34,672 nucleotides of DNA, taken from contig JACMMP010000231.1 of the NCBI GenBank assembly GCA_014378995.1, forward strand, positions 1 through 34,672, read 5' to 3'. The position numbers and the translations under genes were made by a program. The stretch's first letter is position 1; every line of letters starts with the position of its first letter. The stretch is from Hyphomonadaceae bacterium (GTDB taxonomy: Bacteria > Pseudomonadota > Alphaproteobacteria > Caulobacterales > Aquidulcibacteraceae). The notes below the pieces were generated by a model. That model was not told the origin of the DNA, made no database searches, and worked only from the letters and a program-made list of their open reading frames with translations. Below, in pieces: positions 3,873-32,901 of the stretch.

Positions 3873-3949
3873 GGGCGGCAGGAAGTCCATCCAACACCGC
3901 GCAAAGCCCGCTATAGTGCGCCGATGATGACACGCAGATCGCACCGCTT

Positions 3950-4027
3950 CGGACCGCCGGCTTCCAGCCGGCATTCGGTGATCACGCTTGCTCAGGCCTG
4001 TGGATTCGGCTGGAAGCCGGCGGTCCG
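3950..4027. repeat. Palindromic REP-like element, copy A (hisN 5' side)
   Basis: Two perfect 21-bp inverted arms (outer sequence CGGACCGCCGGC, inner CTTCCAGCCG and its complement) separated by 36 bp. The element is 78 bp long and ends 3 bp before the ATG of the next gene. It shares the GGACCGCCGGC outer core and overall design with the copies at 28638 and 31934. Confidence 0.85.
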
Positions 4028-4030
4028 CTA

Positions 4031-19736: not shown

Positions 19737-19812
19737 CCTTCGACAGGCTCAGGCTGACGCTGGTGGGTTAGCCTCGACAGTTTAAGTCGCGTCACCCTAA
19801 GCTTGTCGAAGG
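19737..19812. repeat. Inverted repeat with CCTTCGACA-type arms between eda and puuB
   Basis: Imperfect 23-bp arms (CCTTCGACAGGCTCAGG and the complement of AAGCTTGTCGAAGG, both continuing to TGACG) flank a 30-bp centre. It occupies most of the gap between two convergent genes. The CCTTCGACARGCTCAGG sequence is a dispersed repeat I know from many proteobacterial genomes. It could act as a two-way terminator. Confidence 0.75.
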
Positions 19813-28637: not shown

Positions 28638-28717
28638 CTTGGAGCGCCGGCGTCCCCGCCGGCGCGAACCTTTAAGTGACGGATCGGTAGCCGCCGGCGA
28701 GACGCCGGCGGTCCAAG
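28638..28717. repeat. Palindromic REP-like element, copy B (potD-potB gap)
   Basis: Inverted arms of 26-27 bp (outer CTTGGASCGCCGGCGTC, inner CGCCGGCG) separated by about 27 bp. Each arm can also fold on itself through GCCGGCG/CGCCGGC. It begins one base after the potD stop and ends next to the potB ribosome binding site. It is close in sequence to the copy inside the aminotransferase gene. Confidence 0.88.
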
Positions 28718-29819: not shown

Positions 29820-30124
29820 TTGGTGCGCCTTCCCTGCGTGCCGCTGCCAAGGCGGCGTCCTGCGACTAGACCAGGGCTATAACAAGCACGCAAATCGCGC
29901 CGCCGCGCAACATCTGTGATCTCATTTGCGACGATTTTCTGGTCGGAGGGCGCGCCTGCTTCGTTGCACCCCCTCCCCGCGGGGGAGGGGGCAGGGGGTG
30001 GGGTGAAGCGCGGTGAATCAGAATTTGACGACGCCAACGTCAGATGATCGCGCGAACGGCACAAGCGACAGCGCGTCACCCCGCCCCCAACCCCCTCCCC
30101 TCACGGGGGGGCTTTAAGCGCGCT
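29820..30124. other. Non-coding gap upstream of potD with a C/G-tract inverted repeat
   Basis: No gene is recognised here. The right two-thirds are dominated by an inverted repeat with C-rich and G-rich arms. The left third, before the potD start, should hold the potD promoter, but no clear boxes were seen. Confidence 0.6.
29968..30110. repeat. C/G-tract inverted repeat between two polyamine transcription units
   Basis: The left side holds a local hairpin CCCCTCCCC-GC-GGGGGAGGGG followed by GCAGGGGGTGGGGTGA. The right side, TCACCCCGCCCCCAACCCCC then TCCCC and a G-run, is complementary to it across about 70 bp. It lies just beyond the stop of the second GS-like gene and before potD, so it could end the upstream transcript. 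This C/G-tract pattern resembles dispersed repeats seen in other genomes. Confidence 0.75.
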
Positions 30125-31501: not shown

Positions 31502-32901
31502 GCGGCGCTTTCTTGGAGATATTCGGCGGCGAAGCTATCGACCGCTGCGACCAGCCGGTCAATCTGTTGCGCCGTCGTGACGGGCGAGACCAGCATCATC
31601 ATGTGAAACGGCGCGATCAGCACGCCGCGATTCATCAGGTAGAGATGGAGCACATGGTTGAGCTCCGTCTGCGCCAGGGCGGGCCGCATCGCGGCGGCGT
31701 CTTTCGGCGGCGCTGGTGCGAACACGATCTCCGCCCGCGCGCCGACATGCACGACGCACCACGGCAAAGCGCGCTTGGCGATCACGTCGCGCAGCTTGCC
31801 AACCAGCGTCTCCGCCCCGGCCAGCATTGCGGCATACGCTTCCGGCGTCGCCAGTTCCCGCAGCGTCGCGCCAATCGCGGCGATTCCCATGGCGTTGCCA
31901 GCCAACGTCGTGCCGATGCCGGAGCGGCCTGTTCTTGGACCGCCGGCGCCCTCGCCGGCGACAGTGGTGGAAGTGGACACGGTGTTCGCCGGCGAGGCGC
32001 CGGCGGTCCAAGATTGAATCTTGTGCCCCAACTCCGCGCTGACGCCCCAAATCGCCGCCGGAAAGCCCCCGGCGATCGCCTTGCCGATCACCAGCGCATC
32101 CGGCGCGAGGTCCCACGCTTGCGTCGCCCCGCCCGGCCCGCACGAGAGCGTGTGAGTCTCATCCAGAATCAGCAGTGCGCCGGCTTTCTTCGCCAGCGCC
32201 TGTGCGCGCTTCCAGAAGTGCTCCTCCGGCAGAATCATGCCGCAATTGGTCATCGCAGGCTCGGCCAGCACCGCGGCAACATCGCCCTGCGCCAGCGCCC
32301 CCTCCAGCGCGCCAATGTCATTGAACGGCACGGCGCGCGTTGTGCGCGTCATGTCGAACACTTGGCCGATCAGCCCGGCATCTGGCCGCGTACGGCCGTG
32401 ACGTAATTCGACGAAGCAATCTTCGACCATGCCATGATAGCAGCCGTCGAACACCACGATCACCGCTTTGCCCGTCACTGCCCGCGCCCAACGGATCAGC
32501 GCGCGGTTGGCATCGGACGCCGAAAGTGTCGTCTGCCACAGCGGCAAGCCGAAGCGCGCCGCCAGTAGCGCGCCGACGTCCGCCGCCTCGGCCGTCGGCA
32601 GCATGAACGTCGCCCCGCGACGCGCTTGTTCGGCGATGGCGCGCGCGATCTCAGGGCGGCCGTGCCCGAACATGCCCGGCGTGTCGCCAAGGCAGAAATC
32701 ATCGTAGGTATTGTCGTCGATGTCGGTCAGCACCGCGCCATCGCCATCTTCGGCGACGATGGGCGCTGCCCAATCGTTCATCCAATGAAACGGCGCCCCG
32801 AACAGCCAGTGCTGTTTCAGCGCACTCGCTTGTGCGGCGCTTTTCGGATGCGTCTCCAGAAACGCTTGCGTCTCGCGCGCAATCAGTTGGCTCAGCGCCA
32901 T
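31498..32901 (-). CDS. Class-III aminotransferase (GSA-aminomutase-like) with a palindrome-encoded insert
   Basis: A PLP enzyme of 467 residues in the glutamate-1-semialdehyde-mutase-like branch. Features: FHWMNDWAAPIVAEDGDGA at 38-56, CLGDTPGMFGHGRPEI at 70-85, FDGCYHGMVED at 151-161, Asp247 in LLILDETHTLSCGPGG, PLP-lysine Lys274 in VIGKAIAGGFPAAIWG and TTLAGNAMGIAAIGATL at 331-347. Residues about 297-323, rich in A, G, S and T, are encoded by a 79-bp palindromic repeat. Without them the protein would be about 440 residues, the usual size. The insert falls between the lysine region and the GTTLAGN motif. Overlap with the GS-like gene suggests amine catabolism. The substrate is unknown and hemL is unlikely. 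Confidence 0.88.
   Translation of the reverse strand: MALSQLIARETQAFLETHPKSAAQASALKQHWLFGAPFHWMNDWAAPIVAEDGDGAVLTDIDDNTYDDFCLGDTPGMFGHGRPEIARAIAEQARRGATFMLPTAEAADVGALLAARFGLPLWQTTLSASDANRALIRWARAVTGKAVIVVFDGCYHGMVEDCFVELRHGRTRPDAGLIGQVFDMTRTTRAVPFNDIGALEGALAQGDVAAVLAEPAMTNCGMILPEEHFWKRAQALAKKAGALLILDETHTLSCGPGGATQAWDLAPDALVIGKAIAGGFPAAIWGVSAELGHKIQSWTAGASPANTVSTSTTVAGEGAGGPRTGRSGIGTTLAGNAMGIAAIGATLRELATPEAYAAMLAGAETLVGKLRDVIAKRALPWCVVHVGARAEIVFAPAPPKDAAAMRPALAQTELNHVLHLYLMNRGVLIAPFHMMMLVSPVTTAQQIDRLVAAVDSFAAEYLQESAA
31934..32012. repeat. Palindromic REP-like element, copy C, inside an aminotransferase gene
   Basis: Inverted arms of 27-28 bp (CTTGGACCGCCGGCG then CCTCGCCGGCGA and the complement, differing by one extra C) separated by 24 bp, 79 bp in all. 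It belongs to the same family as the elements at 3950 and 28638. It is read through in frame on the minus strand. Confidence 0.9.

Follow-up and report, generated by a model that had tools for sequence, protein, structure and literature searches.

The REPINs of Pseudomonas fluorescens are described as inverted REP doublets with a variable centre and a predicted hairpin, which occur in many copies and are primarily extragenic, with a RAYT gene flanked by the same REP (PMC3116915). The palindromic elements of Rickettsia (RPEs), about 100-150 bp long, lie in frame in conserved genes and are translated; the descriptions in PMC2229807 and PMC10969869 concern obligate intracellular hosts and mention no RAYT association. 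REPs inside the ORFs of free-living bacteria are also in print, including those of the alphaproteobacteria 'E. lithoralis' and 'S. alaskensis', and recB of two Xanthomonas species carries different REPs at about the same site (PMC3733652). The REPs of that paper include the GTAG and CGTC types, and its TIRtrons contain tyrosine transposases flanked by inverted repeats. The CGTC REPs are mainly alphaproteobacterial, and Table 1 of the paper gives no transposase association for them (PMC3733652).

The window analysed here is a stretch of 34,672 nucleotides of a Hyphomonadaceae bacterium, in which a palindromic element lies inside a class-III aminotransferase gene (Table 1). Like the REPINs of P. 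fluorescens, the element is an inverted pair of REPs in one hairpin, its REPs are palindromic, it occurs in many copies, and the same REP is found at RAYT genes, in this case those of congeners. Whereas those REPINs are primarily extragenic (PMC3116915), four copies in this genome, the one in the window among them, are in frame within conserved genes, and the arms here start with CTTGG, ATGG or CTGG. The in-frame position in conserved genes is shared with the RPEs as these are described in PMC2229807 and PMC10969869, whereas the element here is RAYT-linked and its host free-living; judged by description, it would work like the RPEs rather than be filed as a member, the named relatives being MAGs of Hyphomonadaceae and Caulobacterales. 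With the GTAG/CGTC REPs and TIRtrons it shares the position inside ORFs of free-living bacteria and the tyrosine transposases flanked by inverted repeats, but its arms end in CTTGG, ATGG, CTGG or CCGG with neither GTAG nor CGTC as an unpaired tag, and protein-coding palindromes are here tied to a named transposase class in an alphaproteobacterial lineage, a link that PMC3733652 does not give for the CGTC type. An earlier note on this DNA had held an RPE-like case in a free-living alphaproteobacterium to be notable; the element does behave like the RPEs, but in-frame REPs in such bacteria had already been published (PMC3733652). The kind of element is therefore known; the novelty lies in its connection to RAYTs in this lineage and in the fact that the same loops are used recurrently. 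Among titles and abstracts of the open-licence literature, we noticed none on this palindrome family or on recurrent insertion of several families across a genus. We hold with considerable confidence that the element is a REPIN of the RAYT transposon family of the genus, translated as a tolerated loop, and that the same few sites have likely been hit repeatedly, together with allele exchange.

Table 1. Features in the window, and in-frame copies of the element elsewhere in the same genome
Feature	Position	Strand	Remarks
Class-III aminotransferase, 467 aa	31498..32901	-	NCBIfam NF005453 (PRK07046 'transaminase') and Pfam PF00202
REPIN-like palindromic element, 79 bp	31934..32012	.	within the aminotransferase ORF; variable centre between two REP arms in inverted orientation
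Left REP arm, CTTGGACCGCCGGCGCCCTCGCCGGCG	31934..31960	+	small hairpin by itself (CGCCGGCG-loop-CGCCGGCG)
Right REP arm	31986..32012	-	inverted copy of the left arm, one-base indel apart
Second copy, intergenic	28638..28717	.	between ABC permease gene and solute-binding-protein gene; adjoins the stop codon of the latter
GGCTTCCAGCC-loop sister-type copy	3948..4029	.	21-nt perfect arms; near an ORF start; model match E 2e-7; not in the aminotransferase
In-frame copy, MnmA			apparently inside the C-terminal domain; NF001138, 405.6 bits, residues 40-422
In-frame copy, DnaX			between PF12169 and PF12362
In-frame copy, 34-bp hairpin, salicylyl-CoA 5-hydroxylase/oxidoreductase (PRK08255)			between its two halves

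The palindrome and its repeat family

The inverted repeat reported by the earlier note was confirmed. The 18-nt arms at 31933-31950 and 31996-32013 are 100% complementary, and the strand of 31934-32012 folds at -43.5 kcal/mol against a mean of -18.7 for shuffled sequences (z -10.5; 0/200 shuffles as good). Each arm has the form CGCCGGCG-TCCT-CGCCGGCG, an imperfect palindrome. The intergenic element at 28638-28717 has the right arm in common with it (33 nt at 88%), as had been claimed, and folds as well (z -6.9). The 15-mer CTTGGACCGCCGGCG of the arm occurs at 18 exact places in the draft genome (G000; 252 contigs, 87.84% complete). A chance palindrome was ruled out by the fold (0/200 shuffles) and by these 18 exact copies. 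At up to two mismatches, CTTGGACCGCCGGCG gave 79 matches in the draft versus 46 for the reversed control, so that many of the two-mismatch matches are due to chance; within the window alone, a loose 14-mer count gave 17 matches (up to three mismatches) versus 12.3 expected, with 15 of 100 shuffles as high, which is not significant by itself.

In an alignment of 11 copies, the consensus CTTGGACCGCCGGCGTCCTCGCCGGCG is followed by a variable centre and then by the arm in inverted orientation. A covariance model located at least 24 distinct places in this genome at E<=0.01 and at least 25 at E<=0.1, both lower bounds as 150 of the 10,701 candidates were scored; 11 of the 25 places had served to build the model and the other 14 were independent of its building. 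About 25 copies, itself a lower bound, means many per genome but far fewer than the hundreds known from Pseudomonas. Two of the 25 places are single hairpins of 34 bp, and one such copy (C75) folds with a z of -8.9. Across 61 genomes, for which per-genome copy counts are minimum values (saturating at 68 scored candidates), the model matched at E 1e-4 in 28 of 30 genomes of the genus, this one included, versus 1 of 31 others. The arm alone is open in all six frames, as are 78% of shuffles; the 79-bp element is open in all six frames versus 9.7% of shuffles, and the intergenic copy at 28638 is open in just three.

Inserted and empty alleles of the aminotransferase

The aminotransferase matched NF005453 with 619 bits, over a cut-off of 425, in one stretch from residue 3 to 460 that covers both sides of the insert. 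The ORF reads through the insert, which forms residues 297-323 between K274 and the GRSGIGTT motif, that is, between the PLP-lysine region and the GTT motif as the earlier note had placed it. Its estimate of about 27 added residues holds for the length of the segment, but the net gain relative to the empty linker is 22 residues (66 nt). Since 79 bp is no multiple of three, part of the target sequence was lost or altered along with the insertion. In the AlphaFold model (23 sequences; mean pLDDT 79.4, pTM 0.82), residues 301-334 between the helices 289-297 and 337-350 have a pLDDT below 50. The insert thus probably forms a flexible segment that follows the helix behind the PLP lysine and precedes the GTT motif, which fits the loop that the note had suggested for residues 297-323; the low-confidence stretch also takes in the conserved GTT motif, so that low confidence is no proof of exposure. 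The nearest solved structure, 5ykr of P. aeruginosa (43% identity), is without the inserted segment, and its K286, which is mutated in 5ykt, aligns with K274.

Comparison of orthologues showed that the segment was inserted. A match to the aminotransferase at E 1e-60 was found in 23 of the 30 genus genomes; a genome whose insert had destroyed the match would escape this count. Named relatives with the aminotransferase are MAGs labelled Hyphomonadaceae, Caulobacterales, Caulobacteraceae or Alphaproteobacteria. The interval from WGV to SGIGTT contains a 51-nt linker in 12 of the 23, and in the six outgroup orthologues (three Asticcacaulis, one unclassified Pseudomonadota MAG, two from other genera of the family) the linker measures 57 nt and encodes no arm-like peptide. 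The segment as part of the ancestral enzyme was ruled out by these empty orthologues. Together with the 18 exact arm copies and the roughly 25 places in the genome, they agree with the view of a mobile or amplified repeat; no outgroup orthologue carried the peptide without the palindrome, which the note had named as the contrary outcome. An insert unique to this genome was not borne out, because the other 11 orthologues carry 18-81 nt extra, in whole codons in 11/11: +66 in this genome, and +60, +81, +18, +21, +27, +75, +27, +27, +69 and +54 elsewhere, with G003 being a partial gene at a contig end (G and L numbers denote genomes and loci). The earlier observation is therefore confirmed and its interpretation supported.

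The inserted alleles differ in arm subtype: CTTGGACC in this genome, G019, G021 and G009, ATGGACC with TTGGACC in G012, CATGGAGC in G010, GGAGC arms in G007 and the GGCTTCCAGCC type in G003. No target-site duplication was seen in one clean comparison (the G018 insert versus G023), which suggests that about 8-10 bp were replaced at insertion; a further query yielded no empty site fit for comparison. On the tree of the aminotransferase flanks (27 rows), the insert state changed at least 8 times, 5 of them forced by supported branches, and a single inserted clade was rejected (p-AU 0.00095). An independent tree of the MnmA and DnaX flanks (28 genomes, 23 with an aminotransferase state) again required 8 changes, 5 forced, and rejected the single clade with a p-AU of 2.9e-65; neither tree showed the insert label clustered beyond what shuffling gave. 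Several landings combined with allele exchange are the most likely history of this site. In G007 and G010 (L032 and L041), the arm substitutions came in complementary pairs, GGAGC with GCTCC, so the palindrome has been kept within coding sequence, either through the origin of the subtype or through arm-to-arm correction.

Copies in MnmA, DnaX and other genes

The arm search through the genome that the note had proposed revealed a dispersed arm with further in-frame copies. At four of the 25 places, the window copy and those in MnmA, DnaX and the salicylyl-CoA hydroxylase/oxidoreductase, the element is in frame and the ORF around it matches a protein family on either side. The other 21 had no family match on both sides: 6 were without a spanning ORF of 150 aa, and 15 had at least one spanning ORF scanned, though not every one. 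The Pfam scan covered 20 spanning ORFs from 18 places; it gave four further matches (arginase family, HI0933-like, glucosamine isomerase and von Willebrand domain), each confined to one side of the element, which places those four copies probably upstream of genes, and no match in the remaining ORFs.

MnmA was found in 29 of 30 genomes, nine of them with an enlarged linker (102-198 nt vs 57-69). Five of the nine linkers contain the REPIN described here, two an unrelated GGGGGAG palindrome (G003 and G012, classed by eye) and two an apparent remnant (G009, G026), and the insert states changed at least 9 times. The nine codons (A/S)(R/G)K(T/I)TLIS(T/N) in the inserts of five species differ mostly silently, with a pooled pS of 0.53 and pN of 0.11 for a stretch that was chosen after being seen and for pairs that are non-independent. 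The aminotransferase insert occurs in 7 of 8 genomes with an MnmA insert versus 4 of 15 without it (Fisher p 0.009, uncorrected for relatedness).

In the DnaX linker, the REPIN model matched at E <0.001 in 15 of 30 genomes, and in G008 at 0.002. Fourteen of the 15 copies are open through the linker. The copy of G015 (L233) has a stop in the frame of the gene, the rest of which continues in another frame; this break is either real or a sequencing error, and if it is real, a shortened DnaX would be made. Judged by eye, the GGGGGAG type is present in the DnaX linker of G007, G010 and G028, and a second arm or element stands behind the first in G003 and G013. The natural variability of this linker makes DnaX the weakest case for a special landing site. 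The occupants of the aminotransferase, MnmA and DnaX sites in congeners differ in subtype or belong to an unrelated palindrome, and their distribution on the tree is scattered.

RAYT genes and the origin of the inserts

RAYT genes were found in 16 of 30 genus genomes with Pfam Y1_Tnp (PF01797), and likewise in 16 of 30 with a congener RAYT protein as the query. Neither search found one in the genome of the window, of which the draft is 88% complete; this weakens the case for mobilisation there. The 27-nt arms of the window element recur, inverted, around RAYT genes of congeners, and at six loci (L139, L138, L113, L117, L125, L135) inverted arms of the same kind bracket the gene in an element of 590-612 bp end to end; at L137 the arm is clear solely at the right end. 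Scanned with NF047646 (REP-associated tyrosine transposase; cut-off 80 bits), four of the RAYT proteins scored 83.8, 95.5, 78.4 and 79.4 bits, so that two passed and two fell slightly short. An inverted repeat of at least 22 nt brackets at least 17 of 30 RAYT loci, one of them imperfectly (L265), and 11 of the 17 have a GGA(C/G)CGCCGGCG core; the 17 is a lower bound because the RAYT start was taken as 1501 throughout, so that loci close to the end of a contig are out of register (L254 and L273 at least; their arms are visible as L139 and L125). Since congener RAYT genes are bracketed by the same arms, a non-autonomous REPIN of such a transposon is the best reading of the window element.

The arms around different RAYT genes are of the subtypes TTGGACC, ATGGAGC, ATGGACC, CTGGACC, CCGGACC and the GGCTTCCAGCC-loop type. 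The last brackets the RAYT gene at L280; G003 has it in both the aminotransferase and DnaX, and G013 and G014 have it in DnaX. RAYT arms were readable in 8 genomes, and in 5 of these the subtype of the aminotransferase insert resembles a RAYT arm of that genome, as judged by eye. RAYT presence did not significantly track insert presence (Fisher p 0.10 and 0.09 for the aminotransferase, 0.13 for MnmA). At L113 and L139, the RAYT reading frame is open across both arms, which would encode LGPPASSPA at the start and AGEDAGGP at the end, so translation of the arms may extend to the parent element. Each of these two elements precedes an ORF that we take to resemble a prenyltransferase.

The pattern could also stem from one ancient insertion per gene in the ancestor of the genus, which was then kept, trimmed or lost and reshuffled by recombination with little or no repeated landing, a reading that we regard as possible but doubtful. 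Among the 11 aminotransferase alleles with an insert, 7 have the codon CAA before the arm region, so part of the pattern is explained by common descent followed by exchange among species, and the basal species G009 carries the aminotransferase insert. In MnmA, much of the spacer and the left junction are common to most of the five species with a REPIN; in 13 of the 16 DnaX copies examined, 28 or 31 nt separate the beginning of the AARLL codons from that of the element, a near-constant register that suggests one old insertion for most of them. Both features fit one old inherited insertion rather than many landings. However, the empty aminotransferase alleles have a common 51-nt AAVPR-like linker, which could not be regained by merely excising the known inserts, and the arms of the inserts there are read in two different frames. 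The CTTGGACC, CATGGAGC and GGCTTCCAGCC subtypes occupy the same sites, and the MnmA site of two species holds the unrelated GGGGGAG palindrome; different subtypes and families at the same few places most likely mean multiple hits.

Insertion of an ordinary MITE moved by a DDE transposase, with an incidental likeness to the RAYT ends, would fit the small size and the terminal inverted repeats, but it is very improbable given that the RAYT genes are flanked by the very arm sequences, subtype variants included, that every arm is a hairpin by itself as in REPs, and that the one empty-site comparison showed no target duplication. That the insert-bearing aminotransferase is a pseudogene or an impaired enzyme tolerated through redundancy is also improbable, if less so. 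The insert adjoins the GTT motif, 7 of 30 genomes had no match at E 1e-60 (some being incomplete drafts), and one congener has a frameshifted copy; yet the frame is intact across 467 aa and was kept in all 11 inserted alleles, K274 and the neighbouring residues are conserved, and dN is far under dS, the dN/dS versus eight congeners being about 0.1-0.3 (pairwise, not branch-specific). The aminotransferase is thus still under purifying selection, as for a working gene. The frameshifted copy, in the complete genome of G023 (CP096134.1; L089 / L052), breaks near residue 229, and its linker contains no palindrome.

For the REPIN reading, the steps can be sketched as follows. A RAYT acting on a single-stranded hairpin presumably placed the REPIN. 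With arms that have no stop in any frame, insertions that keep the frame in tolerant loops would survive and be translated, while most others were probably purged. Repeated hits at the aminotransferase, MnmA and DnaX sites are most likely, in addition to the exchange of alleles between species. Tolerance of the loop and any effect on activity we infer from sequence and model. Such hairpins appear repeatedly to supply new peptide loops to proteins. More tentatively, the RAYT-linked family and at least one unrelated palindrome family may form a standing source of loops, with the aminotransferase, MnmA and the DnaX tau linker as repeated landing pads and with some of the peptides selected as protein; on balance we lean slightly against this broader view. 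Inserted, trimmed and empty alleles at the same place in three conserved genes of about 30 related species form a natural replicated series, which allows the origin of new peptide segments from selfish DNA to be tested directly.

Other repeats are present in the window. A long inverted repeat of the CCCTCCCCGCGGGGGAGG type (29958-30111) lies between the solute-binding-protein and glutamine-synthetase-like genes, and a palindrome resembling it is in frame in MnmA and DnaX of congeners. An inverted repeat of another type, CCTTCGACAGGCTCAGG...CTTGTCGAAGG, with 24-nt arms at 88%, is located at 19737-19812, and a 53-nt direct repeat, 92% identical, at 1608-1660 and 2253-2305.
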